Below, piece by piece: positions 1-20,688 of a stretch of 26,197 nt of DNA (position 1 is the stretch's first letter; each line of letters begins with the position of its first letter). Made by a program: the position numbers and the translations under genes. The stretch is from a virus. The DNA lies in IMG/VR virus record IMGVR_UViG_3300018868_000042, positions 1 to 26,197 of that record; one strand, written 5' to 3'. Under the pieces are notes generated by a model that had not been told where the DNA came from, searched no databases, and worked only from the letters and a program-made list of their open reading frames with translations.

Positions 1-182
1 GAACAACAAACACGGGTGGCGGTGGAGGGGGCGGAGGTATTGGTGCAAACTCAGGTAGCGGAGGATCAGGTATAATTATTATTTCTTATACTGGTAATCA
101 AAGAGGCACAGGAGGAACAATATCTTCTTCCGGTGGTTACACAATACATACATTTAATTCTTCGGGAACATTTACAGCTTAA
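1..182 (+). CDS. Glycine-rich putative adhesin, C-terminal end only (partial)
   Basis: Open reading frame entering from the left edge (first full codon at base 3) and ending TAA at 180-182. What remains is a Gly run, then a hydrophobic beta strand (GSGIIIISYTGNQRGTGG) and the closing motif GGYTIHTFNSSGTFTA. This end is shared almost residue for residue with the seven other glycine-rich genes in the window, so this is the last part of another member of the array, and the array extends left of the window. The N-terminal modules cannot be seen. By family resemblance it is a phage virion-surface or fibre-tip protein; the receptor-binding role is inferred. Confidence 0.85.
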   Translation, partial: TTNTGGGGGGGGIGANSGSGGSGIIIISYTGNQRGTGGTISSSGGYTIHTFNSSGTFTA

Positions 183-196
183 TTACGGAATAAAAA

Positions 197-1573
197 ATGG
201 CCTCTAAAAATAGAAATCTATCGGCAATGCCAACCAACACGAACTCGATGAAAGTTCCTGTTGGTAATACTGCTACCAGAGGAGCAAACACAGCAGGCTT
301 TATTAGATTCAATAGTGATCTGAATACACTAGAAGCAGCCAATGGTACTGTGTGGGCCAATGTAGGTTCAGGTTCAGCAAGTTCTGGTAGTGGAGTTTCT
401 TGGCAACCAATACAAAATACAAATTTTATTTCAGTTAAAAACAATGGATATTTGGTCAATACGGCCACAGGTAATGTTACTATAACTTTACCAACGGCGC
501 CAACTTTGGGTGATATTGTAACGATAGTTGATTATGCCGGTGTTGCAAGTGCCAATGCTTTTATACTTTATGCTGCCGGAAATAAAATTCAAGGCAACAC
601 ATTAAACGTCAATGTCCAATCAAGTGGTTCAGCATTAGGATTAGTGTATACTGATTCTACAAGAGGATGGATTCCTTATTCTGGATTTTCAACATCACCA
701 ATTGGAAATTATTCAATTAGTTATTTGATTGCTGCAGGTGGCGGTGGCGGTGGTGCTTCAGGTGGTGGCGGTGCTGGCGGCTTAATTACAGGAACAGCAG
801 TATCAATTATTCCAGGAACCGCATATGCAATTTCAGTCGGTGCGGGAGGTACTGGCAGCGGAGGCGCTGGAATTTCTGGAACAAATACCACATTTTTTGG
901 CCAAACGGCTGTTGGCGGTGGTGGCGGTGGAGGCCACGGTGTTGCTGCTACAAGTGGTGGTAGTGGTGGCGGCGGAGGTTCAGCGGCTACACCAGCTGGT
1001 GCAGCAGGAACATCAGGCCAAGGAAATTCCGGCGGTACTGGAAATGGTGCTCAAACTGATCCCTATGTGTCTGCTGGCGGCGGTGGTGCAGGTGCTACAG
1101 GAGGAAATTATTCGGGCGTATCATCAGGTAGTGGAGGAGCTGGATTAGCATCATCAATTACAGGCACATCCCTTTATTGGTGTGGTGGTGGAGGCGGCGG
1201 TTCTCAAGGTCAATTAAATCGTGGTGGTGCTAATAATGGAATTCCAGGAAATGGCGGCATAGGTGGTGGTGGAGGTGGAGCAAACTCATATGATAGTTCC
1301 GGTCGAGTGGGTTCCGGCGGAGGTTCAGCATTAAATTCTGGGGGTGCAGGCACATCAACTACATCAGCTGGTGCTATAGGAGGTAATGGCGGTGCAAATA
1401 CTGGTGGTGGCGCTGGTGGAATGGGTATCACAGTTAGCACTGCCGGTAATGGGGGTTCAGGTATAGTTGTCATTTCTTATTTTGGTCCTCAACGAGCTTC
1501 AGGTGGAACAATTACTTCTGTTAATGGTTATACTGTTCATTCTTTCTTATCATCAGGAACATTCGTAGCTTAA
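197..1573 (+). CDS. Glycine-rich putative adhesin / tail-fibre tip protein, class A
   Basis: 458 residues. Domains: N-terminal peptide MASKNRNLSA; a small module at about 19-58 (VPVGNTATRG...IRFNSDL...WANVGSGSASSG); a beta domain at about 68-170 containing VTITLPTAPTLGD and ending GWIPYSGFSTSPIGNY; a Gly-rich region at about 175-425 of repeated GGGGG runs separated by variable segments; and a C-terminal block SGIVVISYFGPQRASGG...VHSFLSSGTFVA. Alternating Gly runs and variable segments resemble the polyglycine-II adhesin gp38 of phage S16; a receptor-binding role is inferred from this and from the fibre locus. An unusual Cys lies in YWCGGGGGG (bases 1175-1201). It starts 14 bases after the preceding stop with only a weak GGAA ribosome site. 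Other members of this family: 5405, 6749, 9653, 10916, 12227 and 13816. Confidence 0.85.
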   Translation: MASKNRNLSAMPTNTNSMKVPVGNTATRGANTAGFIRFNSDLNTLEAANGTVWANVGSGSASSGSGVSWQPIQNTNFISVKNNGYLVNTATGNVTITLPTAPTLGDIVTIVDYAGVASANAFILYAAGNKIQGNTLNVNVQSSGSALGLVYTDSTRGWIPYSGFSTSPIGNYSISYLIAAGGGGGGASGGGGAGGLITGTAVSIIPGTAYAISVGAGGTGSGGAGISGTNTTFFGQTAVGGGGGGGHGVAATSGGSGGGGGSAATPAGAAGTSGQGNSGGTGNGAQTDPYVSAGGGGAGATGGNYSGVSSGSGGAGLASSITGTSLYWCGGGGGGSQGQLNRGGANNGIPGNGGIGGGGGGANSYDSSGRVGSGGGSALNSGGAGTSTTSAGAIGGNGGANTGGGAGGMGITVSTAGNGGSGIVVISYFGPQRASGGTITSVNGYTVHSFLSSGTFVA

Positions 1574-1594
1574 TGTTTCGTCACCAGATAGCTT

Positions 1595-1602
1595 AATAAA
1601 TA
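1595..1602 (+). promoter_or_regulatory. Possible T4-type late promoter box (AATAAATA)
   Basis: AATAAATA differs from the T4 late -10 consensus TATAAATA at the first base. The same TAATAAATA context occurs before the tail-tube gene. The ATG of the fibre gene is at 1608, where transcription from this box would be expected to begin, so the transcript would have no leader and no ribosome site. It may therefore be inactive, or may give a leaderless transcript. Confidence 0.35.
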
Positions 1603-1607
1603 CCATA

Positions 1608-4600
1608 ATGGCCCTCACAAGAATCCCAAGTTCCCTAGTAGCGAATACCTTTACAGCGAATACAGTTTTATTTGCTAATGGTTTAGGTTATCTTTCTAAT
1701 ACTAGTAACTTTAAATATTTCTCAGGTAACAATACAATTGCTGTTGGTGCTGTTGTTGCTGGTGGCATCGATGTAATCAGTTATACTCAAGCGGCTTTTA
1801 ATGCCGCTAATGCTGCAGGTTCTTCTGCTTATGTTCAATCAGCATATGACCAAGCAAACACAGCCACAGGTATTGCTCAAGCCGCTTTTAATTCAGCAAA
1901 CAATGTTGCACCACAAGTTCAACCAGCATTTGATAAAGCCAACTCAGCAAATGTGTTGGCACAATCTGCTTATAATTCCAGTAATGCTGTAAATCAATAT
2001 GCAGCTTCTGGTTATGCTTTAGCCAATACCAATGCTACCAACATTACATTGGTTAATCAATTTGCACAATCGGGATACAATCAAGCAAACACGGCAACTG
2101 GTATAGCTCAAGCGGCATTTAACTCTGCCAATAACGTAGCACCTCAGGTACAACCAGCTTACGATAAAGCCAACGTTGCTTACACACTAGCACAATCTGC
2201 ATACAATTCTAGTAATGCAGTCAATCAATATGCAGCTTTTGGTTATGCTTTAGCTAATACTAATGCAACCAATATTACATTAGTCAATCAATTTACACAA
2301 TCAGCTTATAACGCTGCAAATGCGGCTGGTTCTTCTGCTTATGTTCAATCAGCATTTGATAAAGCAAACTCAGCAAATTCTTTAGCACAGTCAGCTTATA
2401 ATGCGGCCAACACGGCATTATCTGGCAACACAATTCAATACTTAACAGTTAGCAAACAAACATATACTGCAACTGCCGGTCAAACAAGTTTTGCAGTTAC
2501 TTATACTCCAGGCTTGGTTACATTAGTAATCAATGGTTCTACAATTGATTCTTCTGAATATACGGCAACTAATGGTAGTGCAATTGTATTAAACAATGCT
2601 GCCAGTTTAAATGATATTGTGGACATTACTGGATTTGTTTCGGCTAACACAATTTCATCAGCATTTACAGGACCACAAGGTAATACTGGCCCAGCAGGTC
2701 CATTGTTCACAGGTAACACCACTTATCAATTAATAACAACGAACACACAAAACGCAATATCGACCTCCACAGGTGCTTTGATTGTTTATGGTGGCGCTGG
2801 TATTTCTGGTAATGTTTATTCAAATAAAATCTATACTGATGGCATCTTTTACTCTGCTAATGGATTACCATTTCAGATGGGTTCACCGGACCTAACCGAT
2901 AATTGGGCAAGGCAACAAGCTAATACTAATAACTTGGCAATCGTTGCTGTAAATCAATATGCAATGTCAGCATATTATAATGGTAATTTAAATGCTACCA
3001 GTATTACTTCCGTTAATCAATATGCTGCATCAGCATATAATACAGCAAACTTAGCATACAATACAGCAAACTCAGCATCATCCAATACAATTTACAATAA
3101 TGGCGTTAATGTAACACAGAATACTAATATCATTTATTCTACAGCAATTGCTGGTTATGCTTGGAATACGGCCAACAATGCGCATCTAAGATTAGATGTT
3201 GGTGTTGGAACTCAAGCAACTCAGAATACTAGATTAGATGGTATTGAAGGTACTAATCTCACACAGAATACCAATATTACCACGGCTAATAATGCTGCTT
3301 GGGCTGCTTATGCTGCTGGTAATACTAATGCAACCAACATCACGGCAGTAAATAATTTTGCTCAGTCAGCATATAATACGGCCAACACCAAGTTCAATTC
3401 TTCTGGTGGAAATATTACTGGTTCGGTTACTATCTCAGGTAACAACGACCTTACTGTAACAGGTAATCTATATCTTACTGGTACACAATTTGTTTCGAAT
3501 ACACAATCATTCGTAACACAAGATCCTTTATTGGTTTTAGGATTAGGAAATTATACTTCTGATGCTGTTGATATTGGATTTGCTTCACACTATAACGATG
3601 GCGCAAATGCTCACACCGGTTTAATACGAGATTACGGCACTAAAGAGTATTATTTCTTTAAAGGTTATACACCAGAACTTGATACAAACAACAATGTTAA
3701 TATCAATCATGCATCATTTTCTACAGCCAATGTTAACGCAGGATACTTTAGAGGTAATGTAATATCAAGAGGGTATGATGTTCTTGATTTTGCTCAAGCG
3801 GCATACAATTCTGCCAATAATGTGGCACCTCAGGTACAACCTGCATTTGATAAAGCCAACACTGCATCATCCAATACAGTTATTATTCAAGGTGTTGACC
3901 TTACTCAAAACACTCGTATCAATAGTATTGAAACTATTAACAACAATCAGAACACAACGATTGCTATTATTCAAGGTGTTGACTTAACACAAAATACTAG
4001 ATTAGATGGTGTTGAAGGTACAAACTTAACACAGAATACCAATATTACCACAGCCAATAATGCTGCTTGGGCTGCCTATGCTGCCGGTAATACTAATTCA
4101 ACAAACATTACCTATGTTAACCAGTTTGCTCAGTCGGCATATAATGCCGCTAATGCCGCTGGTTCTTCGGCATATGTCCAAGCCGCTTTTGATAAGGCTA
4201 ATAATGCGTTGGCCAATACGTCTGGAACCTTCGCAGGTAACTTAACCACCACAGGTAACGTCAAAGTATCTAGCACACAAGCAGCGACCTCCACAACGAC
4301 CGGTGCTTTGACTGTTTCTGGTGGTGTTGGTGTTTCTGGTAATCTTTATGCTGGTAACATTTATACCAATGGTGCTTTAATTAATAACTCTGCAGCACTT
4401 ACTGTATACAAGTATGTTGCCACAGCAGGTCAAACCACATTTAGTGGTTCTGATAGTAATGCATTAACTTTATCTTATGTTGCTTCAGCAATTTTTGTAA
4501 CACTCAACGGTGTTGTTCTTAATAATACTTTAGAATATACGGCAACTAATGGTACATCAGTAGTATTAGGAACTGCGGCTGAATTAGATGATGAATTAAA

Positions 4601-5408
4601 CATTTATTCTTTTGGTGCTTTCCAAATTGCTGATGCTTATACTTCAGCACAGGCCGATTCAAGATTCTTAACACAAGCAAATGCAATAACAGGTTATGTG
4701 TCAACTGCTAACGGGACAGCAATTAATCAATTCGCTGCCGGTGCTTATACAAATGCCAATGGTGCTAACGGATTGGCGGCAGGTGCTTTTGCATTGGCCA
4801 ATACTGCATCAGCCAACACCATCATTACACAAGGTATTGATAACACTCAAAATACCAATATTACAACGGCTAATAATGCTGCGTGGGCTGCCTTTGCATC
4901 TTCAAATACTAAGATTGCTTCGATTACCGGAACATCCAATCAAATTATTGTAACTGGTACAACTACACCAACCCTATCAACACCACAAGATATTGGAACA
5001 GCATCAAATGTTCAACATGGTTCTTTAGGTATTGGTACTGCTGCTTCTGGTACAGCAGGTGAAATTCGTGCAAGCAATAACATTACTGGTTACTATTCAT
5101 CGGATAGAAAATACAAAGAAAACATCATTGATATTCCAGATGCGTTAAATAAAGTAGATGCTATTGGTGGTAAAATGTTTGACTGGACAGATTCCTACAT
5201 ACAGGAACACGGTGGTGAAGATGGTTACTTTGTTCAAAAACGAGATTTTGGTGTCATCGCTCAAGATGTTCAAGCAGTATTCCCCGAAGCAGTAAGAACA
5301 AGAGAAGATGGTTCTTTAGCCGTAGATTATTCTAAGTTAAGTGCTTTAGCGTTTGCCGCTATTGTAGAGTTGAAAAAAGAAATAGAACAATTAAAAAATA
5401 ACAAATGA
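1608..5408 (+). CDS. Long tail fibre protein with C-terminal S74 intramolecular chaperone
   Basis: 1266 residues, the largest protein here. It starts MALTRIPSSLV, and there is no other in-frame ATG for several hundred codons. Much of it is Asn/Ala/Gln-rich repeats (AYNxANxA, LTQNTNITTANNA), probably a trimeric shaft. Two beta modules of the GQTxF type lie at about 285-343 and 934-1005, a short collagen-like GPQGNTGPAGP between them, and a QDPLLVLG domain at about 634-690. Residues 1164-1266 are a peptidase_S74 domain: SSDRKYKENI, FGVIAQDVQAVFPEAV, VDYSKLSALAFAAIVELK. In that family the Ser of the SD pair (S1165) and the Lys five residues on (K1170) form the self-cleaving dyad; both are present, so release of the chaperone before S1165 is expected. 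Its stop overlaps the next gene by 4 bases. It is the likely host-recognition fibre; attachment point unknown. Confidence 0.9.
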   Translation: MALTRIPSSLVANTFTANTVLFANGLGYLSNTSNFKYFSGNNTIAVGAVVAGGIDVISYTQAAFNAANAAGSSAYVQSAYDQANTATGIAQAAFNSANNVAPQVQPAFDKANSANVLAQSAYNSSNAVNQYAASGYALANTNATNITLVNQFAQSGYNQANTATGIAQAAFNSANNVAPQVQPAYDKANVAYTLAQSAYNSSNAVNQYAAFGYALANTNATNITLVNQFTQSAYNAANAAGSSAYVQSAFDKANSANSLAQSAYNAANTALSGNTIQYLTVSKQTYTATAGQTSFAVTYTPGLVTLVINGSTIDSSEYTATNGSAIVLNNAASLNDIVDITGFVSANTISSAFTGPQGNTGPAGPLFTGNTTYQLITTNTQNAISTSTGALIVYGGAGISGNVYSNKIYTDGIFYSANGLPFQMGSPDLTDNWARQQANTNNLAIVAVNQYAMSAYYNGNLNATSITSVNQYAASAYNTANLAYNTANSASSNTIYNNGVNVTQNTNIIYSTAIAGYAWNTANNAHLRLDVGVGTQATQNTRLDGIEGTNLTQNTNITTANNAAWAAYAAGNTNATNITAVNNFAQSAYNTANTKFNSSGGNITGSVTISGNNDLTVTGNLYLTGTQFVSNTQSFVTQDPLLVLGLGNYTSDAVDIGFASHYNDGANAHTGLIRDYGTKEYYFFKGYTPELDTNNNVNINHASFSTANVNAGYFRGNVISRGYDVLDFAQAAYNSANNVAPQVQPAFDKANTASSNTVIIQGVDLTQNTRINSIETINNNQNTTIAIIQGVDLTQNTRLDGVEGTNLTQNTNITTANNAAWAAYAAGNTNSTNITYVNQFAQSAYNAANAAGSSAYVQAAFDKANNALANTSGTFAGNLTTTGNVKVSSTQAATSTTTGALTVSGGVGVSGNLYAGNIYTNGALINNSAALTVYKYVATAGQTTFSGSDSNALTLSYVASAIFVTLNGVVLNNTLEYTATNGTSVVLGTAAELDDELNIYSFGAFQIADAYTSAQADSRFLTQANAITGYVSTANGTAINQFAAGAYTNANGANGLAAGAFALANTASANTIITQGIDNTQNTNITTANNAAWAAFASSNTKIASITGTSNQIIVTGTTTPTLSTPQDIGTASNVQHGSLGIGTAASGTAGEIRASNNITGYYSSDRKYKENIIDIPDALNKVDAIGGKMFDWTDSYIQEHGGEDGYFVQKRDFGVIAQDVQAVFPEAVRTREDGSLAVDYSKLSALAFAAIVELKKEIEQLKNNK
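1875..2336 (+). repeat. Two direct 231-bp (77-codon) repeats in the fibre shaft
   Basis: Units 1875-2105 and 2106-2336 are in exact tandem and in frame. Both read AQAAFNSANNVAPQVQPA(F/Y)DKAN and then an AQSAYNSSNAVNQYAA...NITLVNQF block. The second unit drifts at its end. A shortened third copy (about 73 bases) starts at 3792. The DNA is clearly diverged at synonymous positions, so the duplication is old. Confidence 0.85.
3219..3377 (+). repeat. Fibre-shaft direct repeat, copy 1 (copy 2 at 3987-4145)
   Basis: This segment encodes TQNTRLDGIEGTNLTQNTN followed by ITTANNAAWAAYAAGNTN and ends in FAQSAYN. It recurs 768 bases (256 codons) downstream at 3987-4145 with few amino-acid changes. A shorter third copy (NTQNTNITTANNAAWAAFA) lies at about 4840-4900. 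These are internal shaft duplications, in frame. Confidence 0.8.
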
Positions 5409-6739
5409 CAAAGAATAGAACTCTAGCCGGAATATTACCTGATGGTAACGCAATGATGGTGCCAGCAGGTAATACTGCTCAGCGCCCAGCAAATACTGCG
5501 GGTATGATTCGTTACAATACAACACTCAATACACTCGAAGCGGCTAACGGAGTATATTGGGCCAATGTAGGTTCAGGATCAGCAAGTTCTGGAGGTTCAT
5601 CATCTAATGTATCTTCATTGACATCGAATGTTTTTATTACTTCATCAAACAATGTTATTATATCAGCAAATACTGGTTTGATAGATGCATCAAATGCTTC
5701 AATTGGTTTTGTTATTCCCACAGGAACATTTACACAAAGACCAACTGCGGCAGCTAACGGAACAATTCGTTGGAACTCATCAAATAATTGGGCCGAAATG
5801 TATACAGGCTCAGCTACAGGTTGGGTTGTTCTTGCTTACGGCGGACAATATCAAATCACATATCTTGTTGTTGCTGGTGCTGGAGGCGGAGGTGGCCGTC
5901 ACGCAGGAGGTGGTGGTGCAGGAGGATTACTCACAGGTACATCTTTTGTAACACCATTGTCTACTTATTCTGTTACAGTTGGTGCTGGTGGTGCCGGTGC
6001 AACAACTCAAGGTATAACCGGAACAGTTGGTACAAATTCAACTGCAATATCATTGACTGCAATTGGTGGTGGTGGAGGCAGTTCTTGGGGTGATGGAGGA
6101 GGTCCATCAGGACCAACTTCACCATCTGTAGCTACCGGCGGAGGATCGGGTGGAGGTAGTACCAATTCTGGAGCTGGAGCAGGAACATCAGGACAAGGAT
6201 ATGACGGAGGAACCAGTAGCTCCGGCGGTTGCGGTGGTGGAGGCGGCGGCGCAGGAGGAGTAGGATCCAATACGACCGGATCAACAGGAGGACCAGGCGG
6301 TCCAGGAGTTTTATTTTCTACTGATGGATATGGTTATTATTATTCTGGTGGGGGTGGAGGAGGCGGATGGACCGTAACCGGCGGTACAGGAGGATCCGGA
6401 GGCGGCGGCGGCGGTGCTGCTGATGCGCCGCCAAGTGGTTCAGCGGCCGCAGGAGGACCAGGAGGAACCGGCGGCAGAAATGCTGGAACAGCAGGCACCG
6501 GAGGAACAGCACCAGCAAGCACAAGAGGTGGCAACGGTGGCGGCAATACCGGAGGTGGTGGAGGTGGTGGTGCACAAAACTATTCACCTTACGGATCAAC
6601 TTCTGCAGGCGGTAATGGAGGATCAGGCATTGTAATTTTTTGTTATCCTGGCACACAAAGAGGTTCTGGTGGCACAGTCACATCTAATGGCGGCAAAACA
6701 ATACACACATTTACTTCTGGTGGAACCTTTACAGCTTAA
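5405..6739 (+). CDS. Glycine-rich putative adhesin, class B
   Basis: 444 residues. The ATG overlaps the fibre stop (ATGA), so translation is probably coupled; no ribosome site is visible. N-terminal MTKNRTLAGI is followed by a VPAGNTAQRP...WANVGSG module at about 19-58. A second such module at about 103-148 (IPTGTFTQRPTAAANGTIRW...WVVLAYGG) replaces the TLPASP beta domain of class A members. The Gly-rich region spans about 152-410, with the longest Gly runs of the array, and the C-terminus is GSGIVIFCYPGTQRGSGG...HTFTSGGTFTA. Lying directly after the fibre gene, it recalls gp38 following gp37 in T2-type phages. However, the fibre has its own S74 chaperone, so adhesin attachment to it is only a possibility. 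Confidence 0.85.
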   Translation: MTKNRTLAGILPDGNAMMVPAGNTAQRPANTAGMIRYNTTLNTLEAANGVYWANVGSGSASSGGSSSNVSSLTSNVFITSSNNVIISANTGLIDASNASIGFVIPTGTFTQRPTAAANGTIRWNSSNNWAEMYTGSATGWVVLAYGGQYQITYLVVAGAGGGGGRHAGGGGAGGLLTGTSFVTPLSTYSVTVGAGGAGATTQGITGTVGTNSTAISLTAIGGGGGSSWGDGGGPSGPTSPSVATGGGSGGGSTNSGAGAGTSGQGYDGGTSSSGGCGGGGGGAGGVGSNTTGSTGGPGGPGVLFSTDGYGYYYSGGGGGGGWTVTGGTGGSGGGGGGAADAPPSGSAAAGGPGGTGGRNAGTAGTGGTAPASTRGGNGGGNTGGGGGGGAQNYSPYGSTSAGGNGGSGIVIFCYPGTQRGSGGTVTSNGGKTIHTFTSGGTFTA

Positions 6740-6748
6740 ATAATAACA

Positions 6749-9649
6749 ATGACCAAATCAAGAAACCTAGCTAAATTTCCTAAGACTTCTGCAATACAAG
6801 TGCCGAGTGGTGATACTGCTGCACGGCCATCGGGCGCAAACGGATACTTTAGATACAATACATCAACATCTTCTTTTGAAGGTTACTCTAATAATAATTG
6901 GGGTGCTGTTGGTGGTGCAATGTATGTTTCTGCTAATACAGTTTCAGATGCAAATAATATCTCAACAGGATTTTTTGGTTTACCTGCAGGTACAACAGGT
7001 CAAAGACCAGCATATAGTGCCAATGGTTATCTAAGATACAATACCACACTATCTTCATTTGAAGGATTTTCAAGTGGTGTATGGGGTTCTATTGGTGGTT
7101 CTTCTTCTGCTGGTCTGGCTGGATGGTCAGTAATTAATTCCAATTATGCTGTTGGCAACAATGTTCAATTAATTGCCAACACAACCACCGCAGGATTCAC
7201 AGTAACATTGCCTGCATCGCCTGTGTCCGGTAATACTGTTGTTATTACTGATGGTTCTATTATATCGGTTGGTTGGTCAAATAATAATGTTACTGTTGCT
7301 CGTAACGGTTCAACTATTTTAGGTTTCGCAGATGATTTAGTATTGAACATATCTCGTTCTACTACAACTTTAGTATATGATGGTGGTACATGGCAAGTTT
7401 CTTCTACTGTTGGACCAAAAGGTTCTGATGGTTCTCCAGGTGCTGCTGGTGCTAATGGTACTCCTGGTTCTGCTGGTGCTAACGGTACTAACGGTACCAT
7501 TGGTGTTGATGGTGTTGGTGCTAATGCTACACAAAGAAATTATCGATTTAATTCTACCAATAATCAAACTATATTCATTGGTACAGATGCTTACAGTCAA
7601 ACATTAAGTTATAATGTTAATGCTGTTTCTGTATATCTCAATGGTGTTTATTTAAGACCAACAGAAGATTATGTTGCTAATAATGGCACGACAATCTATT
7701 TGAATTCTGGCACATTAGCCAATGATGCTTTAGATGTTGTTTCATTCCAAAGTATGTCATTGACCGCAGCACAGAATACTATTACAACATTTGTATATAC
7801 TGCAAGCAATAATCAAACATCTTTTGGTGGTGCAGATATTAATGGTAGAACATTAGATTATAACCAAAACAATCTTTTTGTAACACTTAACGGTCTTACA
7901 CTTAGAAGTGGTGTTGATTATTTACAATCAAACACATCATATATTGCATTGACTTCTGGCGCATTAGCAAACGATGAAGTTAGTATTGTGGCCTTTGGGG
8001 CATTTCAATTACCAGGTACTGCAAACACAATAAGCAATTATTTCTATACTGCTAATTCAGGACAAACAATATTTACCGGCAATGATATTTACGGAAGTCC
8101 TTTGAGTTACAATGGCGGCAATTTAATTGTTACGAGAAACGGTTCTACTCTCAGAAACAAAATAGATTATACTGCATTAAGTGGTACATCAATTACATTA
8201 AACAATCCAGCATATGCTAATGATGAAATTGGTATTCTTACTTTTACTTCATTTATTACTTCTGCAAATACTGATTATCGTTATCTTAGTAAAATTGCTG
8301 ATGATGTTTATACTGCAAACATTACATCAACGGCTACAGGATATTTTCAAGTACCACAAGGTACTACTGCACAAAGACCTGCGGCAACTTCTGCTGGTTT
8401 AATTCGTTATAATACTTCATTAAATTCATTAGAATCAGCAAACGGAACAGCGTGGTCAAATGTAGGATCCGGTTCATCATCAAGTGGTGGTGGTGGAGGT
8501 GTTACATGGACGCCAACAGTTCAGAATACAAGTTTTATAGCAGTAAAAAATAATGGATACTTAGTAAACACCGCAACAGGAAATGTAACAGTAACTTTAC
8601 CGGCATCACCAACAGTAGGTGATAATATTACTTTTGTGGATTATGGTGGAAATTTTAGTGCTAACGCATTAATATTTTATCCTAACGGCAGTAAAATTAA
8701 TGCAAATACAATTAACGTTGCATTAACAACAAGCACAGCATCCATTGGACTTGTTTACACAGATAATAATAAAGGCTGGATTGCATACAACGGATTTCAA
8801 AGTTCACCAATTGGAAACTACAATGTTGAATATTTGATTGTCGCTGGAGGAGGCGGCGGTTCTTCTGGTTATTGCTCTGGTGGAGGTGGTGCAGGTGGTA
8901 TGTTAACTGGTGTAACCCCAATTGCTTCCGGTACAGCATATTCAATTTCAGTTGGTGCTGGTGGAACAGGTGTCACCGGTGGATCAGGTTGGCCAAATGC
9001 AAAAGGAACTAGTGGATCAAATTCTTCTTTTGCTTCATTAACATCCATTGGTGGTGGCGGCGGTGCAGGTAATAATTCAGGAAATGGATTAAACGGTGGC
9101 TCTGGTGGTGGCGGAGCCAGCGTTAGTCAAGGTGTTGGAGGATCAGGAACCGCAGGACAAGGAAATCCAGGAGGATCAAATAATAGTCAAAGTATTTCAC
9201 ATGGTGGTGGTGGTGGCGGTGGTGCAGGTGCATCAGGTGGAACAGGAACAACTGCACAAGGTGGTGATGGCGGAATAGGATTAACAACAAGTATTACCGG
9301 CACATCAACATATTATGCTGGAGGTGGTGGTGGTGGAACATATTATTATAATGGTTCTGGCTCCGGAAATGGACCGGCCGGTGCTGGAGGTTTGGGTGGC
9401 GGCGGAGCCGGAGGAAGATATTCCGGTGCTCCAGCAATAGGTACATCAGGTTCAACAAACCTTGGAGGTGGCGGCGGCGGTGGAGCAGGATTCGATTCAC
9501 CAACAATTTCTTATAATGGTGGAAATGGCGGATCTGGTTTTGTAGTTGTTCGTTATCTTGGACCACAGAGAGCTTCAGGTGGAGCAATATCGATTTCTGG
9601 TGGATACACCATACATACATTTACCGGTTCAGGAACCTTTACGGCTTAA
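6749..9649 (+). CDS. Large composite fibre protein with glycine-rich adhesin C-terminus
   Basis: 966 residues, more than twice its paralogs. Order of parts: MTKSRNLAKF; QRP-type modules at about 18-56 and 78-117 (RYNTSTSSFEGY...WGAVGG and RYNTTLSSFEGF...WGSIGG); a TLPASP beta domain at about 126-219; a collagen-like Gly-X-Y stretch at 222-257 (GPKGSDGSPGAAGANG onward); three GQTxF beta modules at about 265-501; a third QRP module at about 532-580; a second TLPASP domain at about 590-690; the Gly-rich region at about 695-925; and the shared C-terminus (HTFTGSGTFTA). From about residue 532 onward it matches the shorter class A proteins, so it looks like one of them with a long stalk added in front. 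It probably forms a longer fibre presenting the same kind of tip. The gap to the previous gene is 9 bases and there is no evident ribosome site. Confidence 0.85.
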   Translation: MTKSRNLAKFPKTSAIQVPSGDTAARPSGANGYFRYNTSTSSFEGYSNNNWGAVGGAMYVSANTVSDANNISTGFFGLPAGTTGQRPAYSANGYLRYNTTLSSFEGFSSGVWGSIGGSSSAGLAGWSVINSNYAVGNNVQLIANTTTAGFTVTLPASPVSGNTVVITDGSIISVGWSNNNVTVARNGSTILGFADDLVLNISRSTTTLVYDGGTWQVSSTVGPKGSDGSPGAAGANGTPGSAGANGTNGTIGVDGVGANATQRNYRFNSTNNQTIFIGTDAYSQTLSYNVNAVSVYLNGVYLRPTEDYVANNGTTIYLNSGTLANDALDVVSFQSMSLTAAQNTITTFVYTASNNQTSFGGADINGRTLDYNQNNLFVTLNGLTLRSGVDYLQSNTSYIALTSGALANDEVSIVAFGAFQLPGTANTISNYFYTANSGQTIFTGNDIYGSPLSYNGGNLIVTRNGSTLRNKIDYTALSGTSITLNNPAYANDEIGILTFTSFITSANTDYRYLSKIADDVYTANITSTATGYFQVPQGTTAQRPAATSAGLIRYNTSLNSLESANGTAWSNVGSGSSSSGGGGGVTWTPTVQNTSFIAVKNNGYLVNTATGNVTVTLPASPTVGDNITFVDYGGNFSANALIFYPNGSKINANTINVALTTSTASIGLVYTDNNKGWIAYNGFQSSPIGNYNVEYLIVAGGGGGSSGYCSGGGGAGGMLTGVTPIASGTAYSISVGAGGTGVTGGSGWPNAKGTSGSNSSFASLTSIGGGGGAGNNSGNGLNGGSGGGGASVSQGVGGSGTAGQGNPGGSNNSQSISHGGGGGGGAGASGGTGTTAQGGDGGIGLTTSITGTSTYYAGGGGGGTYYYNGSGSGNGPAGAGGLGGGGAGGRYSGAPAIGTSGSTNLGGGGGGGAGFDSPTISYNGGNGGSGFVVVRYLGPQRASGGAISISGGYTIHTFTGSGTFTA

Positions 9650-9664
9650 GATATGAGTAAAACA
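9611..9664 (+). repeat. Gene-junction direct repeat, copy 1
   Basis: A 54-base segment spanning the 3' end of the 966-residue gene, its stop, the 3-base spacer and the first codons of the next gene. It matches 10874-10927 at 53 of 54 positions by eye; the difference is C versus A within the GAAC(C/A)TTT stretch. It is the most similar long DNA stretch I found in the array and a natural site for homologous recombination between neighbouring genes. Confidence 0.8.
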
Positions 9665-10912
9665 TCGACACTAGCAGATATCGTTTCAGCAAATTCTACA
9701 TTGATTGTTCCTACTGGAGGCACATCAAGTAGGCCTTCAGCTAATGCTGGTTCAATTCGTTTCAATACAGATTTAGGTACATTAGAAAGTGCTAATGGAA
9801 CGGCATGGGCCAATGTGGGTTCAGGTTCAGCAAGTAGTTCTAGTGGCGGTGGACTTTCATGGCAAACAGTTCAAAATACAAGTTTTATTGCTGTTGCTGG
9901 AAATGGTTATCTTGTTAATACGGCATCATCAAATGTAATCACAACTTTACCCGCAAGTCCAACATTTGGCCAACAAATACAATTCTTAGATTATGGTGGT
10001 TACTTGAGTGTAAATGGTTTAATCATATACGCCAACGGAAATAAAATTTTAGGTAACACAGCCAATGCAACATTAACAACCAATACTTCAACAGTAGGAA
10101 TCATTTACACAGATTCAAATAAAGGATGGATTCCTTATTCTGGATTTACGACATCACCAATTGGAAATTATAATGTTGAATCATTCGTGCTTGCCGGTGG
10201 TGGAGGAAATAACTATACGGCTGGCGGTGGGGCTGGAGGATTATTATCATCTTCACTCACAGCTGTTATTCCAGGAATTTCTTATACCGTTACTGTGGGT
10301 GCTGGAGGTGCTGTTTCTGGTAGCGGAACTTCATCGAGTTTTAATAATTTAACGGCAGTAGGTGGTGGTGGCGGCCAAGATGGATCTCGTAATGCTATTG
10401 CTGGTGGTAGCGGCGGAGGTTCTAGATACTCTGATCGACCAGGAGGATTAGGAACTTCGGGACAAGGATATCCAGGTGGTGTTGGTTCTGATGGATTAGT
10501 TGCTACAACTCCTTCAGGTGGTGGCGGTGGTGCAGGAGGTACTGGAGGTAATGCAGCTGGAAGTCCAGGTTATGGTGGTGTAGGAGGAGTTGGTATTGCA
10601 TCTTCATTTAATGGATCATCAACTTATTATGCTGGCGGTGGAGCCGGTGGTGCCGATGGTGGCGGTGGCGGCAATACAGGTGGTAACGGCGGCGGCGGTC
10701 CAAGCGGTGCTTCAGGAGTAGCAGGAACTCCAGGATCAACCAACCTTGGTGGCGGCGGTGGAGGAGGTTCTGCTGGTCCAGGACAAACGGGCGGATCAGG
10801 TAGAGTTATGATTCGTTACCTTGGCGGACAAAGAGGTGTAGGTGGTACTGTTACATCATCCGGTGGTTACACAATACATACATTTACCGGTTCAGGAACA
10901 TTTACGGCTTAA
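9653..10912 (+). CDS. Glycine-rich putative adhesin, class A (shortest)
   Basis: 419 residues. MSKTSTLADI; a QRP-type module at about 19-58 (VPTGGTSSRPSANAGSIRFN...WANVGSG); a TLPASP beta domain at about 69-172 (LSWQTVQNTSFIAVAGNGY, TTLPASPTFGQ, GWIPYSGFTTSPIGNY); Gly-rich region at about 178-390; C-terminus MIRYLGGQRGVGG...IHTFTGSGTFTA. The N-terminal two domains are closest to those of the following gene (10916). The start lies 3 bases after the previous stop (TAAGATATG) with no ribosome site in range, suggesting reinitiation after termination. Function is inferred as for its paralogs. Confidence 0.85.
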   Translation: MSKTSTLADIVSANSTLIVPTGGTSSRPSANAGSIRFNTDLGTLESANGTAWANVGSGSASSSSGGGLSWQTVQNTSFIAVAGNGYLVNTASSNVITTLPASPTFGQQIQFLDYGGYLSVNGLIIYANGNKILGNTANATLTTNTSTVGIIYTDSNKGWIPYSGFTTSPIGNYNVESFVLAGGGGNNYTAGGGAGGLLSSSLTAVIPGISYTVTVGAGGAVSGSGTSSSFNNLTAVGGGGGQDGSRNAIAGGSGGGSRYSDRPGGLGTSGQGYPGGVGSDGLVATTPSGGGGGAGGTGGNAAGSPGYGGVGGVGIASSFNGSSTYYAGGGAGGADGGGGGNTGGNGGGGPSGASGVAGTPGSTNLGGGGGGGSAGPGQTGGSGRVMIRYLGGQRGVGGTVTSSGGYTIHTFTGSGTFTA

Positions 10913-10927
10913 GATATGAGTAAAACA
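10874..10927 (+). repeat. Gene-junction direct repeat, copy 2
   Basis: Second copy of the junction repeat at 9611-9664. It covers the end of the 419-residue gene, TAAGAT, and the first codons (ATGAGTAAAACA) of the 435-residue gene. Both copies keep the same 3-base spacer between stop and start. Confidence 0.8.
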
Positions 10928-12223
10928 AGAAACCTAGCTAATTCAGCACCACAATTTAATTCACTAATTGTTCCTACTGGCAATACAGCACAGAGGCCAA
11001 CTGTTACTGCCGGACAAATTCGTTTCAATACAGATTTAGGTACATTAGAAAGTGCTAACGGAGTATATTGGGCAAACGTTGGTTCTGGTTCAGCAAGTTC
11101 TGGTGGCGGAGGAATTTCTTGGCAAGCAGTTCAGAATACAAATTTTATTGCTGTTGCAGGAAATGGATATGGAGTTAATACTGCTACAGGAAATGTTGTT
11201 GTTACTTTGCCAGCAAGTCCAACCGCAGGACAACAAATTAATTTATTTGACTATGGTCAAACATTTAGTGCTAATGGCGTAATTATATATTCAAATGGAA
11301 ATAAAATATTAGGTAATACGGCAAATATAACAATACAATCTAGTGGTGCTTCGGTTGGATTAGTTTATTATGATACAATCAAAGGCTGGGTTCCTTATAA
11401 TGGATTTTCAAGTTCAATTATTGGACCTTACACATTAAGTTATTTAATTGTTGCTGGTGGTGGCGGAGGTGCTGGAGGAAGTTATCATGGCGGAGGTGGT
11501 GGTGCTGGAGGAATGTTATCTGGTTTAAATCTTTCTGTTATTCCAGGAACAGGATATTCCGTAGTTGTAGGTGCCGGAGGTGCAGGCGGACCAAGTGCAA
11601 GTGGATCTTCAGGATCAAATTCTTCACTTTATACATTAACTGCAGCATTAGGTGGCGGCGGTGGAGGAAGTTATGTGGGGCCTTTTGCTGGAGGATCAGG
11701 CGGTTCTGGTGGAGGCGGATGTGGAGCCTCTAATACAGGTGCTATTGGGCCAGCAGGAGCCGGTACAGCAGGCCAAGGAAATCCTGGAGGTTCAGGTTCA
11801 TCAAGCACCGCTCCGGCTTATGGAGGAGGAGGAGGCGGTGGTGCTGGAGCATCAGGAACAAACGGAACAGGACCGGCTGGGGGTGCTGGTGGTGCAGGAT
11901 TGCCTTCATCAATAACCGGATCTTCTACATATTATGCCGGCGGCGGCGGCGGAAGCACATATGCTTCAGCTGGTCCTGCTGGAGCTGGAGGTACTGGAGG
12001 TGGTGGAGCTGGAGGAACTCCTGGAGCAGGCGCAGCAGGAGGAACAAATACCGGGGGTGGTGGCGGCGGAGGAGAACGAGGATCTCCAACAACAGGATCA
12101 GGAGGTTCAGGTGTTGTAATTGTTTCTTATCTTGGTGGTCAAAGAGGATCCGGAGGAACTGTTACTATTTCTGGCGGCCAAACAATACATACTTTCAATT
12201 CTTCAGGAACATTTACGGCTTAA
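10916..12223 (+). CDS. Glycine-rich putative adhesin, class A
   Basis: 435 residues. MSKTRNLANS; a QRP-type module at about 19-58 (VPTGNTAQRPTVTAGQIRFN...WANVGSGSASSG); a TLPASP beta domain at about 68-171 (VVVTLPASPTAGQQ, GWVPYNGFSSSIIGPY); Gly-rich region from about 178 to 400; C-terminus SGVVIVSYLGGQRGSGG...IHTFNSSGTFTA. Residues 1-135 are close to those of the 9653 gene, while the variable segments between Gly runs differ freely. This is the pattern expected if the scaffold is kept and the exposed loops are under selection. The start is 3 bases after the preceding stop. Confidence 0.85.
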   Translation: MSKTRNLANSAPQFNSLIVPTGNTAQRPTVTAGQIRFNTDLGTLESANGVYWANVGSGSASSGGGGISWQAVQNTNFIAVAGNGYGVNTATGNVVVTLPASPTAGQQINLFDYGQTFSANGVIIYSNGNKILGNTANITIQSSGASVGLVYYDTIKGWVPYNGFSSSIIGPYTLSYLIVAGGGGGAGGSYHGGGGGAGGMLSGLNLSVIPGTGYSVVVGAGGAGGPSASGSSGSNSSLYTLTAALGGGGGGSYVGPFAGGSGGSGGGGCGASNTGAIGPAGAGTAGQGNPGGSGSSSTAPAYGGGGGGGAGASGTNGTGPAGGAGGAGLPSSITGSSTYYAGGGGGSTYASAGPAGAGGTGGGGAGGTPGAGAAGGTNTGGGGGGGERGSPTTGSGGSGVVIVSYLGGQRGSGGTVTISGGQTIHTFNSSGTFTA

Positions 12224-12226
12224 CAC

Positions 12227-13813
12227 ATGACTATCTATCAAAATAATATTGCAGGCTCAGGATTTTTACAAGGTGCCACAGGTGCTCCAGGTCCAGCAGC
12301 CAACACATTCATTCAAGAATATGAATACATTGCTACACAAGGACAAACGTTATTTTCTGGTAACGACAAATACGGTAATCCAATGTCATATGCTGCCAAT
12401 GGAATTTTTGTTGCATTGAATGGTTCTCTACTAAATGAATTAGAAGAATACTCTGCAATTAATGGCTCATCATTAACATTGAATCAAGCAGCTTCAGCAA
12501 ATGATGAATTAATTGTATATACATTTCCAGCATTTAATGTGGCTAATACATATACACAACAACAAGCCAATACGATATTTTTATCACAGGCAACAGCAAA
12601 CGGAACATTTGCATCTATAGCAAATACATATACTCAAGCACAAGCTAACACAATATTTTTAAAATTAACCGGCGGAACAATTTCTGGTAATGTAAACTTT
12701 GCCAATGGTTCAAACTTTACGGTGCCTGTAGGTAATACTGCTCAGAGGCCTGTTGCGGCTGCAGGATTCATTAGATACAATACGGATTTAAATACACTCG
12801 AATCTGCCAATGCAACGGCGTGGGCCAATGTAGGTTCTGGTTCAGCAAGTTCTGGTGGTTCATCATCAAACGTAGCATCTGTAACAGGTAATGTTTATAT
12901 TAGTTCTGCTGGAGGATTAATTGATGCTTCTAATGCTACATTAGGTTTTGTATTTCCTGCAGGAACATACGCACAAAGGCCAATTGCAACAGCAAATGGC
13001 ACTGCAAGATGGAATACAAGTAACACACAACTAGAAGTTTATGTTGGTGGTGGAATCTGGCAAGCAATTGCATACAGTAGTTATCCAGTTGCAGCATTAA
13101 TTCTTGCTGGTGGTGGAGGCTCTGCTAATTATGGCGGAGGTGGTGCAGGAGGACTTCTTTATGTTGGTTCAACTTATGTTGTTCCAGGAACTCCTTACAC
13201 CGTTACTGTTGGTGGTGGAGGAGCTGCATCATCTTCAGGATCAAATTCATCAGCAATAAATCAATCCGCTATTGGCGGAGGTGGAGGTTACGCTTCTACA
13301 TATACTGCAAGAAGCGGAGGTAGTGGCGCAGGAAACTCTTTTGGTTCGGGATATGGTGGACCAGGATCTGGTACAACTGGCCAAGGAAATCCTGGCGGCC
13401 AAGGAATGGATGGAATTTCGCAATACACTACAGGTGGTGGTGGTGGCGGCGCCGGTGCATCAGGCGGTGCAGCTTCAGGATCACAACCAGGTCCTGCAGG
13501 AAGTGGAGGCACAGGTACAGCTTATTCAATTTCCGGCACTTCAACAACATATGCTGGCGGAGGAGGTGGAGCTTCAAATGCAGGACCACAAGCTGGCGGC
13601 GGTGCTGGTGGTGGAGGTACAGGAAATAATACTGGCGGCACTAATGGTGGCACAAATTTAGGTGGAGGCGGTGGCGGTGGCGGTGGTACCGGAGGTTCAG
13701 GTATTGTAATTATTCAATATGCTGGCACACAAAGAGGTACCGGCGGAACATATACTTACACCGGCGGATATTCTATTCACACCTTCACTTCATCGGCAAC
13801 ATTTACAGCTTAA
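12227..13813 (+). CDS. Glycine-rich putative adhesin, class B, with added N-terminal stalk
   Basis: 528 residues. It lacks the SKxRNLA-type N-terminus; instead it has a short collagen-like GATGAPGPA (16-24), a GQTxF beta module at about 31-103 (IATQGQTLFSGND...SANDELIVYTFPAF), and two copies of the fibre motif TYTQxQANTIFL (108-119 and 134-145), the second followed by GGTISGNVNF. Two QRP-type modules follow at about 165-206 and 240-285, the second like that of the 5405 gene (LIDASNATLGFVFPAGTYAQ). Then come the Gly-rich region at about 295-490 and the C-terminus SGIVIIQYAGTQRGTGG...IHTFTSSATFTA. The different N-terminus suggests a different attachment point from the SKxRNLA group. The start is 3 bases after the previous stop. 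Confidence 0.85.
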   Translation: MTIYQNNIAGSGFLQGATGAPGPAANTFIQEYEYIATQGQTLFSGNDKYGNPMSYAANGIFVALNGSLLNELEEYSAINGSSLTLNQAASANDELIVYTFPAFNVANTYTQQQANTIFLSQATANGTFASIANTYTQAQANTIFLKLTGGTISGNVNFANGSNFTVPVGNTAQRPVAAAGFIRYNTDLNTLESANATAWANVGSGSASSGGSSSNVASVTGNVYISSAGGLIDASNATLGFVFPAGTYAQRPIATANGTARWNTSNTQLEVYVGGGIWQAIAYSSYPVAALILAGGGGSANYGGGGAGGLLYVGSTYVVPGTPYTVTVGGGGAASSSGSNSSAINQSAIGGGGGYASTYTARSGGSGAGNSFGSGYGGPGSGTTGQGNPGGQGMDGISQYTTGGGGGGAGASGGAASGSQPGPAGSGGTGTAYSISGTSTTYAGGGGGASNAGPQAGGGAGGGGTGNNTGGTNGGTNLGGGGGGGGGTGGSGIVIIQYAGTQRGTGGTYTYTGGYSIHTFTSSATFTA

Positions 13814-13815
13814 TT

Positions 13816-15156
13816 ATGGCAACAACAACTCAAACATTATTTGATCAAGCGAACTCAGCAATAACTGGAATTGATGCGTCATTAATCACACTTCAACAAC
13901 AGAGTGATGAATTCAATGTAGTTACTGCGGCAGCCAATACAACCATACCAACAGCCAATGGTAATGTTTCAACTACATCATCAACAGCTGCATATTATAA
14001 CAAAGCTGAATCTGATACATTATACCTTAGCACTTCTGGTGGAACAGTTACAGGAAACATAACGGCTACCGGATTCTTTTATGCTAACGGAGTATCTGTT
14101 GGTGGTGGAAGTGGTGGTGTAGCTGCAGTAAATGGTGTTGTAGATATGAGTGCTGCATATTCATCGTTAATTTTACCTAGAGGAACAACAGCACAAAGGC
14201 CATCTTTTGCGGCTAATGGAGCAATTAGATGGAATTCTTCTAATAATTGGTTAGAAGTTTATACTGGCGAAACAACGCAATGGTCGGTTCTTGCTTATGG
14301 TGGCCAATATTTAATTACTTATTTGATTGCTGCTGGTGGCGGTGGTGGTGGTAGTGACATGGGTGGCGGTGGTGGTGCCGGTGGTTATCTTTCGGGAACA
14401 ACACTCGTTACACCTGGACTTAGTTACACAATTTCTGTTGGTGCTGGTGGCGCTGGAGCTCCTGCCGGCACATATCAAAATAAAGGCATCAATGGTAATG
14501 ATAGCACAATTGGTCGGCTTGTAATAACATCAGTTGGTGGAGGTGGTGGCGGATCTGAATATGGTGGAGGACCTTATCAAGCTGGTGCTTCTGGAGGATC
14601 AGGTGGAGGTGCAGCCGGTGGTCCGGCTAGCGGTGGAGCCGGAACATCCGGCCAAGGATATCCCGGTGGCGGCAACGGAGGAATTTGGTATATGGGTGGC
14701 GGCGGTGGCGCAGGCGGCGTAGGTGCCGGTTCTGGCGGCGTAGCTACCGGAGGAATTGGAATTCAAAATTCTATTCTAGGAACAAATTATTATTGGTGCG
14801 GTGGCGGTGGCGGAGCCGGTTATTCTGTTAATGGAGGTACCGGCGGAGCTGGCGGTGGCGGTGGCGGTGCAGTTGGTTCACCTAACGGCGGTAGTGGCAT
14901 AACTACAGGAGCAACTGGCGGAGGCGGCGCCACAGTAACACAAGCAAATACTCCAGGTGGAAATGCTGGACAGTATACTGGAGGTGGCGGTGGCGGTGGC
15001 GCACATTACAACTTAACCAATCCAGGCGGTAGTGGTGGTTCAGGAATTATTGCTATTACATATGTTGGTCCACAACGAGCCACGGGTGGAACAATTACCA
15101 CCGTTAGCGGCAATCCTGTTCATACTTTTTATAGTTCCAGCACTTTCGTAGCATGA
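13816..15156 (+). CDS. Glycine-rich putative adhesin, class B, last of array
   Basis: 446 residues. The N-terminus (MATTTQTLFDQANSAITGID) is unlike its neighbours and probably helical. It is followed by the tail-fibre motif YYNKAESDTLYLSTSGGTVT (60-79), a QRP-type module at about 118-163 (LPRGTTAQRPSFAANGAIRW, then VLAYGGQY), a Gly-rich region at about 168-412 and the C-terminus GSGIIAITYVGPQRATGG...VHTFYSSSTFVA. A Cys occurs in YYWCGGGGGAGY (about bases 14788-14823), as in the 197 gene. It sits where T4 has wac (fibritin), just before gene 13, but has no fibritin-like coiled coil. Its TGA stop overlaps the late-promoter box for the neck genes. Confidence 0.85.
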   Translation: MATTTQTLFDQANSAITGIDASLITLQQQSDEFNVVTAAANTTIPTANGNVSTTSSTAAYYNKAESDTLYLSTSGGTVTGNITATGFFYANGVSVGGGSGGVAAVNGVVDMSAAYSSLILPRGTTAQRPSFAANGAIRWNSSNNWLEVYTGETTQWSVLAYGGQYLITYLIAAGGGGGGSDMGGGGGAGGYLSGTTLVTPGLSYTISVGAGGAGAPAGTYQNKGINGNDSTIGRLVITSVGGGGGGSEYGGGPYQAGASGGSGGGAAGGPASGGAGTSGQGYPGGGNGGIWYMGGGGGAGGVGAGSGGVATGGIGIQNSILGTNYYWCGGGGGAGYSVNGGTGGAGGGGGGAVGSPNGGSGITTGATGGGGATVTQANTPGGNAGQYTGGGGGGGAHYNLTNPGGSGGSGIIAITYVGPQRATGGTITTVSGNPVHTFYSSSTFVA

Positions 15157-15162
15157 TAAATA
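15155..15162 (+). promoter_or_regulatory. T4-type late promoter box (GATAAATA) for neck/packaging genes
   Basis: One mismatch to TATAAATA. It overlaps the TGA stop of the last adhesin gene and lies 22 bases before the gp13 ATG, leaving room for a short leader with the ribosome site AGAGGGA (15173-15179). Confidence 0.65.
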
Positions 15163-15184: not shown

Positions 15185-15958
15185 ATGGCAACAATTTCTA
15201 GCAGACCCGATTTCAAAAACTATTGCTTACGCAGATTAGGTTTTCCCGTTATTGAGTTGAACCTTGATGACGATCAAATTGAAGATCGTATCGATGATGC
15301 ACTTCAGTATTGGCAGGATTACCATTTTGATGGTACACAGAAAGTGTATTATATCAAAGCAATTACACAAACCGATATCAATAACAAATATCTAAATTTG
15401 GCTGACGCTAAAGATGGTAGTAATAACGCCATGGATATTATTGGTGTTACTCGTATATTTCCTGTGCAAGATTCGCAGGCCACAGTTTCAATGTTTGACC
15501 TCAGATATCAGTTACGGTTAAACGAACTCTATGACTTCACCTCCGCATCATACATCAACTATACATTAACAGCACAGCATTTACGTTCACTGGAGTTATT
15601 GTTCTCTGGAGAAGTTCCTATTCGATTCCAAAGGCATATGCAGAGGTTGTATATCGATTGGGCATGGGGAGCATCCGAAGCACCAAAAGGTACCGTTGTT
15701 ATTGCCGAAGCCTATGCTAATATTGATCCGGCAATTTACAATAAAGTTTGGAACGACCGTTGGTTAAAAGAATATGCTACTGCGCTTATCAAAAGAAGTT
15801 GGGGAAATAATTTAAAGAAATTTTCTGGTATTCAATTACCCGGTGGTGTTACATTAAACGGCGATAAGATATATGAAGAAGCGGTTGGCGAAATTGAGAA
15901 ATTAGAAACTGAAATGCAAGTTGAGTATGGAGCTCCGCTAGAATTTCTGATGAACTAA
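15185..15958 (+). CDS. gp13: Neck protein gp13 (head completion)
   Basis: 257 residues; T4 gp13 is about 309. In T4, gp13 and gp14 form the neck that closes the DNA-filled head and receives the tail. The family signature is clear near the N-terminus: FKNYCLRRLGFPVIELNLDD, then IEDRIDDALQYWQDYHFDG. It continues with LRSLELLFSGEVPIRFQRHM and a Trp-rich WAWG segment, and a C-terminal region (WLKEYATALIKRSWGNNLKK, LPGGVTLNGDKIYEEA) typical of the family. It follows a late-promoter box and a good ribosome site, and begins the block 13-14-15-16 in T4 order. Confidence 0.93.
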   Translation: MATISSRPDFKNYCLRRLGFPVIELNLDDDQIEDRIDDALQYWQDYHFDGTQKVYYIKAITQTDINNKYLNLADAKDGSNNAMDIIGVTRIFPVQDSQATVSMFDLRYQLRLNELYDFTSASYINYTLTAQHLRSLELLFSGEVPIRFQRHMQRLYIDWAWGASEAPKGTVVIAEAYANIDPAIYNKVWNDRWLKEYATALIKRSWGNNLKKFSGIQLPGGVTLNGDKIYEEAVGEIEKLETEMQVEYGAPLEFLMN

Positions 15959-15959
15959 T

Positions 15960-17839: not shown

Positions 17840-17840
17840 A

Positions 17841-18257
17841 ATGAACGAACTGAATAAATCATTATCTGAAGTATTTGATGTTGAACCAGTAAAAGAAATC
17901 AAAAAAGAAAAACTTCCAGTAGTTCAACAAAACTATGATGATCCTGATATGAAACAGGACTTGACTGATGCGTATCAACAGTCAAAAGAAAACCTACAAG
18001 CTATCATTGACCAAGGCAAAGAAGCAATGGATGAAATACTTCAGATTGCTAAGGTTGGTCAACACCCAAGAGCATTTGAGGTTTACGGTACCATTCTTAA
18101 AAACATGGTAGATGCCAACAAAGAACTATTGGCAATTCAAAAACAAATGCGTGAGATGGATGGCAAAATTAAAGAATCAACCAACACCACAATCGATAAA
18201 GCTATTTTTGTGGGATCAACCAGTGAGCTTAGTAAACTATTAAAAGGCAAATTATAA
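17841..18257 (+). CDS. gp16: Terminase small subunit gp16
   Basis: 138 residues; T4 gp16 is 164. In T4 it forms a ring that regulates the gp17 motor and helps initiate packaging on concatemeric DNA. The sequence is mostly helical: an acidic N-terminus, DLTDAYQQSKENLQAIIDQG, then QHPRAFEVYGTILKNMVDAN and KELLAIQKQMREMDGKIKES, a likely coiled coil, then the conserved end AIFVGSTSELSKLLKG. Position between gp15 and gp17 supports the call. The start is one base after the gp15 stop. Confidence 0.9.
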   Translation: MNELNKSLSEVFDVEPVKEIKKEKLPVVQQNYDDPDMKQDLTDAYQQSKENLQAIIDQGKEAMDEILQIAKVGQHPRAFEVYGTILKNMVDANKELLAIQKQMREMDGKIKESTNTTIDKAIFVGSTSELSKLLKGKL

Positions 18258-18258
18258 A

Positions 18259-20680: not shown

Positions 20681-20688
20681 CGGTCTTA

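Follow-up and report, generated by a model that had tools for sequence, protein, structure and literature searches.

Does a row of closely similar glycine-rich genes next to the neck genes of a T4-like phage encode a repertoire of receptor-binding tips and, if so, are these tips carried together on one virion or kept as alternatives? The locus that raises this question lies in a virus record of 26197 bases, analysed over its whole length and here called the window. It is a fragment of a T4-like phage that includes the genes from gp13 to gp20, and its terminase is approximately 55% identical to cyanophage terminases. The source is an uncultured T4-like (Kyanoviridae-related) bacterial virus from water.

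The glycine-rich gene array and its position

Seven complete glycine-rich paralogues and one partial one occupy positions 1-15156, just 5′ of gp13 (Table 1). A preliminary description of this DNA had counted eight such genes in a row, one of them partial. The count stands, with the partial gene ending at 182, and the genes do form a tandem set, but the row is interrupted by the S74 fibre gene C, which separates the second from the third glycine-rich gene. Gene C passes the cut-off of PF13884 (Peptidase S74) with an E-value of 5.5e-15.

A six-frame pattern search of the window for H[TS]Fx[SG][SG][GAS]TF[VT]A-stop gave eight copies, all on the plus strand and each ending a glycine-rich ORF. The closing block described earlier as common to the genes is therefore present in all eight, although in its strict SSGTFxA form in only three of them. 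All seven complete proteins pass the curated cut-off of Pfam PF21722 Gly_rich_2 (24.3 bits), with scores of 34-66 bits and E-values of 3e-8 to 5e-18, and all seven match phrog_2295. By BLASTP, F and G are 63% identical over 180 aa and E and F 62% over 185 aa, and the genes of the array also align with one another in DNA (blastn). Closing blocks, Gly_rich_2 matches and BLASTP/blastn alignments together show, at the level of sequence, that the genes are paralogous. As the set runs to the contig edge, the true size of the array may exceed eight.

The window itself begins inside the array, and the order of the preceding genes was read from the longer contig of a relative (L091) whose gp13 is 90% identical. 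There, a gp8-like gene is followed by a DUF4815 (VrlC-like) gene, fibre genes, eight glycine-rich genes, and gp13. We take DUF4815 to be VrlC. The preliminary description had the genes fill the place of T4 genes 10-12 and wac, which is loosely right in view of this order. According to the available text of PMC7029224, the host recognition cluster of pelagimyophages is non-syntenic and lies between VrlC and the neck genes, the same position as the array has by the L091 order. This hypervariable cluster, known from both pelagi- and cyanomyophages, is where the array sits. Adhesin-like tips and their location in a host-recognition region are supported, while receptor binding itself is the putative part of the earlier proposal. 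Fibre genes, one of them with an XD1-type match, also lie 5′ of the neck genes in the cultured Pelagibacter phage Mosig.

Table 1. Positions of the genes, closing blocks, and late promoter motifs in the window.
Feature	Position	Strand	Description
Gene A (partial)	1..182	+	C-terminal end of glycine-rich tip protein; closing block IHTFNSSGTFTA
Gene B	197..1573	+	458 aa; head, XD1-like domain, glycine-rich tip
Gene C	1608..5408	+	1266 aa; fibre with C-terminal S74 intramolecular chaperone domain
Gene D	5405..6739	+	444 aa; head, glycine-rich tip; start overlaps stop of C
Gene E	6749..9649	+	966 aa
Gene F	9653..10912	+	419 aa; head, XD1-like domain, glycine-rich tip
Gene G	10916..12223	+	435 aa; head, XD1-like domain, glycine-rich tip
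Gene H	12227..13813	+	528 aa; one ~90-aa beta repeat (as in C, E), head, glycine-rich tip
Gene I	13816..15156	+	446 aa; distinct stalk, glycine-rich tip
Closing blocks 1-4	144-182, 1535-1573, 6701-6739, 9611-9649	+	Pattern search
Closing blocks 5-8	10874-10912, 12185-12223, 13775-13813, 15118-15156	+	Pattern search
ATAAATA before gene C	1596..1602	+	T4/cyanophage-type late promoter motif
ATAAATA before gp13	15156..15162	+	Late promoter motif; marks end of the C-I unit
Anchor block	15185..24766	+	T4-like neck/tail/packaging: gp13, gp14, gp15, gp16, (glycosyltransferase-like ORF), gp17, gp18, gp19, gp20

Stalks and repeats

The alignment of the paralogues revealed common blocks that occur in differing combinations. 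One of them is a head of about 50 aa, '..VPxGNTAQRP..AGxIRxNTxLxTLEsANG..WANVGSGS'. A profile of B, E, F, and G matches residues 74-178 of CBA120 TSP4-N with an E-value of 5.5e-11, and protein E alone does so with 5.3e-12. These residues of TSP4 comprise a tetraglycine linker and XD1, a domain common to T4 gp9 and gp10 (PMC8825819). The matches show that the stalk XD1 is homologous to that of CBA120 TSP4, with the sequence evidence confined to B, E, F, and G; in fold it resembles T4 gp10/gp9. No XD1 was recognised in D, H, and I. The head, considered as a possible counterpart of the baseplate anchor domain of branched tailspikes, aligns with TSP4 residues 48-77, just before XD1, a match that is not significant by itself.

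Protein E is composed, in order, of a head, an XD1-like domain, a short collagen-like stretch, three beta repeats of about 90 aa, a second head with XD1, and a glycine-rich tip. Such repeats are also found in H (one) and in C (two). Those of C, E, and H weakly matched the N-terminal pair of a K1 depolymerase (a single hit, E-value 0.0013), which suggests that they may be XD2/XD3-type branching domains, and E is perhaps a candidate for the hub of a branched complex. The AlphaFold2 model of E residues 1-690 has a pLDDT of 46, too low for use. An antibody, the sole hit in a single-sequence PDB search with the E repeats (E-value 0.1), was rejected.

Variability and predicted fold of the tip

In the alignment of the seven complete tips, the mean entropy was 0.24 bit for the 84 glycine columns versus 1.45 bit for the 162 other columns. 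As the entropy is low in the glycine columns and high between them, constant glycine runs alternate with variable segments, as had been noted before.

The fold of the tip was assessed with an AlphaFold2 single-chain model of G and Foldseek. The model has a pLDDT of 81 overall and mostly above 90 in the tip, and together the two programs distinguish an N-terminal stalk from a compact glycine-rich tip. TSP4-N was the best match to the model (1.8e-7), and further matches were the Bxb1 tail-tip chain (3e-3), T4 gp10 (3.7e-3), and T4 gp9 (4.2e-3). The match to the Pam3 fibre is moderate, with an E-value of 1.3e-2 and a probability of 0.98 over 252 columns, a TM-score of 0.42 by target, and an rmsd of 6.6; the glycine-rich domain of ALK/LTK matched weakly. 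Gp38 was absent among the 46 fold matches. Judged by the model, the nearest solved relatives of the tip would be the Pam3 fibre and the Bxb1 tail-tip chain, not gp38. The comparison with gp38 made in the preliminary description therefore finds no support if meant as descent; the gp38 family was rejected as ancestor on the fold search and on the architecture, in which the tips are fused to stalks of their own. A PDB search with a wide tip alignment returned mainly kelch-repeat designs, which had matched the head motif 'NTxLNxxExY..W' and were judged to be chance or compositional hits.

The tip family is common, since a library of viral models contained 205 matches to the G model at E-values of at most 1e-3. 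Among the matches listed, most are named 'Glycine-rich domain-containing protein' of uncultured phages. The family spans very different proteins, including those of algal giant viruses. Six records from cultured phages match protein G, all via head and XD1 only and none via the tip. On three other contigs (L189 7358-9868, L204 9239-11713, and L208 2-2359), three glycine-rich tips follow one another within a single protein instead of being spread over separate genes.

Exchange of tips among related phages

The locus was compared among 44 viral contigs anchored by gp13 and reaching at least 7 kb upstream of it, some of which may be from the same virus. By the profile used, the tip was found in 10 of the 44, and six or more tips only in L090 and L091, so the gene set is not constant among relatives. 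Both gene number and tips differ, in place of the constant, conserved set whose possibility the preliminary description had raised.

Several pairwise comparisons locate the differences. Gene B and its counterpart in L091 are approximately 97% identical in nucleotides over codons 60-179, yet they have different tips; the identity drops at residue 179, where the first glycine run starts (max-chi-square permutation p=0.0005). Conversely, gene I and its counterparts in L087 and L093 have tips that are 95-98% identical on stalks with an identity of 60-65%, and against L093 the dS is 0.27 for the tip, 1.03 for the stalk, and 1.12 for gp13. In L087, gp13 and the gene I tip are close to those of the window, while the stalk and gp14 are far. 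The low dN of the gene I tip (0.013-0.03) indicates that it is conserved once acquired, and its 95-98% identity points to variation by block replacement, not by continuous drift between the glycine runs. Over 7.3 kb, L090 and L091 have an identity of 94%, yet they diverge in one gene, starting near residue 120 and continuing as far as the last ~10 codons, where the identity returns to 100%. In L087, the first ~50 residues of the S74 fibre C are joined to a glycine-rich tip, a fusion that ties the glycine-rich proteins to the fibre set, and in L090 and L091 the head of gene D carries a different, non-glycine C-terminus. The comparison of these contigs shows tips exchanged as cassettes between related phages. 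Exact repeats of 20-42 nt between the genes of the window, mostly in heads and closing blocks, could serve as sites for this exchange.

Other sources of the variation were considered and rejected. Recent tandem duplication as the sole origin does not agree with the window tips of B, D, E, H, and I, which are often closest to tips of relatives; the tips of E and G and those of F and H pair within the window. A diversity-generating retroelement was discarded after no reverse transcriptase (RVT_1) was found in seven related contigs, which are incomplete genomes. An invertible switch was discarded as well, with just two imperfect inverted repeats of 24-25 nt and no long one in the array.

Small proteins with the head of the glycine-rich array and a non-glycine C-terminus ending in '..SIWKIV/SIWTVI' were observed in L164 (7662-8012 and 9898-10434). 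Proteins with this ending alternate with the tip genes in L090 and L091; they may be either partner proteins or another type of tip.

Ten glycine-rich tip genes are present in L188 and six in L193; in the stretch examined, neither contig gave a match to the T4-like block of the window. Arrays of glycine-rich tips thus recur in environmental phages. The ten tip genes of L188 (2736-19513) stand amid other fibre-like ORFs and are the largest such set found.

Apparent late expression

The cyanophage late promoter is NATAAATA, of which ATAAATA is the core (PMC2984593). The window contains six copies of ATAAATA, all on the plus strand; five precede a gene by 12-91 nt, and one lies where gp20 ends. 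Their count is not above chance, but their strand and placement are unlikely by chance, as approximately 7% of the window lies that close 5′ of a start. As the motif occurs before gene C and before gp13 and nowhere between, genes C-I form one apparent late unit. Joint production of C-I is also favoured by the small intergenic gaps (2-34 nt) or, in one case, a 4-nt overlap. A scan for sigma-70 promoters gave fewer sites than in shuffled sequences and was uninformative. None of the seven complete glycine-rich genes is disrupted, and every one of them has a start codon and a stalk of its own.

Comparison with known receptor-binding systems

A close parallel is the tail fibre gp24 of cyanophage Pam3 (PDB 7ypx, 7yfw; PMC9608196), likewise a single-chain fibre, with a TNF-like and a glycine-rich distal domain. 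As here, a conserved glycine stem carries variable distal loops, and the fold match is moderate. In Pam3, the fibre has a domain of this kind as its distal part, for which receptor binding is proposed (PMC9608196). Pam3, however, has a single fibre of this type, whose stalk is alpha-helical, whereas the present phage has eight paralogues with XD1-type beta stalks in four of them. Pam3 also has a separate fibre chaperone, in contrast to the array, where gaps of at most 34 nt leave no space for a chaperone gene.

The branched tailspike complex of CBA120 and other Ackermannviridae (TSP1-4; PMC8825819, PMC11414711) likewise has several receptor-binding proteins per locus, with T4 gp10-like modules in their N-termini and modular exchange of the binding parts, as here. 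Those proteins are beta-helix depolymerases and fewer in number; the present ones have glycine-rich tips, and XD2/XD3 are at most suggested in them. The adsorption complex of Alcyoneusvirus RaK2 (PMC10253068) likewise has many fibres (about ten), with gp10-like domains proposed for branching, but its receptor-binding domains and genome type are different. The gp38 of T-even phages (S16, PP01; PMC12892980) is a receptor-binding tip with glycine-rich motifs alternating with hypervariable loops, as here. It is, however, a separate protein on gp37, composed of a beta-helix and a polyglycine II sandwich, whereas here the tip is fused to its own stalk. The host recognition clusters of pelagi- and cyanomyophages occupy the same place, are non-syntenic, and contain several fibre genes; the available text of PMC7029224 does not describe them as arrays of glycine-rich paralogues. 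In sum, the family, the type of locus, and the modularity are already known, and the size of the array and the combination of stalk and tip are new.

Proposed function of the array and alternative explanations

We consider it probable that the array encodes modular receptor-binding adhesins that are displayed together and diversified by recombination. Each protein has an N-terminal attachment or stalk part and then a compact tip, in which glycine-rich strands are predicted to make a sandwich and display the variable loops; these loops would be expected to contact host surface receptors. Genes C-I would be transcribed together from the late promoter, and several different tips would probably be present on one virion, perhaps in a branched complex. 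Over evolutionary time, tips are replaced as cassettes by recombination between phages. One crossover falls within the stalk or at the stalk/tip junction, the other in the closing block, and the repertoire thereby changes without making the attachment parts incompatible. For these proteins we infer receptor binding, trimerisation, co-display, and a hub role of E. The preliminary description had offered two possibilities, all tips on the virion or alternatives supplied by recombination. Both seem to apply: C-I look co-transcribed and intact, which would agree with co-display, and tips are exchanged between phages. A bolder version, which we regard as rather doubtful, would have one virion with at least eight different glycine-rich tips in a branched gp9/gp10-like complex, E as its hub, and tips swapped through short homologies at the stalk/tip junction and the closing block. 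If true, aquatic T4-like phages would possess a plug-in system of receptor binding by which host recognition could be broad or could shift.

The array could instead be mainly a reservoir, with one or few adhesins used per virion or host and the rest stored or selected in turn. Such a use would agree with the cassette replacement of tips among relatives, the exact repeats concentrated in heads and closing blocks, and the T-even gp38 as an adhesin of the alternative type. Silent cassettes, however, should be missing a start or a stalk, and every complete gene has both; C-I lie in one apparent late unit, and neither an invertible segment nor, in the seven related contigs, a reverse transcriptase was found. 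We therefore consider a reservoir unlikely. Somewhat harder still to accept is that the glycine-rich C-terminal domains serve in trimerisation, capping, or decoration (for instance, of whiskers or the baseplate) and have no part in receptor binding. The databases name the family only 'glycine-rich domain', it occurs in proteins as different as those of algal giant viruses, and the closing block is strongly conserved, all of which would fit. This explanation is at odds with the position in the host recognition cluster, the high variability confined between the glycine runs, the exchange of tips on conserved stalks, and the precedent of Pam3.

It is very improbable that the S74 fibre C bears these proteins at its tip as detachable adhesins of the gp38 type. 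The alternation of glycine runs and variable segments does resemble gp38, and the S74 fibre lies inside the array, but every protein has its own stalk (with XD1 in B, E, F, and G), the fold search gave fibres of Pam3 and Bxb1 and no gp38, and S74 is itself a C-terminal fibre-folding domain. Hardly any weight can be given to an assembly artefact that collapsed or joined fibre genes of several phages. The record is indeed one metagenomic contig of 26 kb, but the independent contig with 90% identical gp13 has eight glycine-rich genes at the same place, another has at least six, and L087 and L093 confirm that gene I adjoins the neck genes.

The locus makes it testable whether aquatic T4-like phages carry many receptor-binding tips at once. 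The natural swaps have clear borders, so that the tip boundaries for binding tests can be read from the sequence. For hundreds of environmental phage proteins, 'glycine-rich domain-containing' is the only name, with function largely unassigned, and the locus links this domain to modular stalks in a host-recognition cluster.

Other variable loci near the block

Between gp16 and gp17, a 248-aa ORF (18259-19005) with an 'LEDDME' motif appears glycosyltransferase-like by eye and gave no Pfam or PHROG match. It is found at the same place in some relatives (e.g., L008, L009, L011, L016, and L031) and is absent in others, which points to the gp15-gp17 stretch as an insertion hotspot. The C-terminal part of gp15 (residues ~208-296; within 15960-17839 of the window) matches the corresponding part of phrog_460, a head-closure family that also covers gp14, and the gp8-like and VrlC-like proteins of L163 (3631-11328) match the same region of phrog_460. 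These matches suggest that one extra domain may have been added to several structural proteins. Finally, the ORF 3′ of gp20 (25209-25727) is either ~68-78% or ~30% identical in most relatives, while the flanking genes are uniformly similar, and it looks like a gene with two exchangeable alleles.
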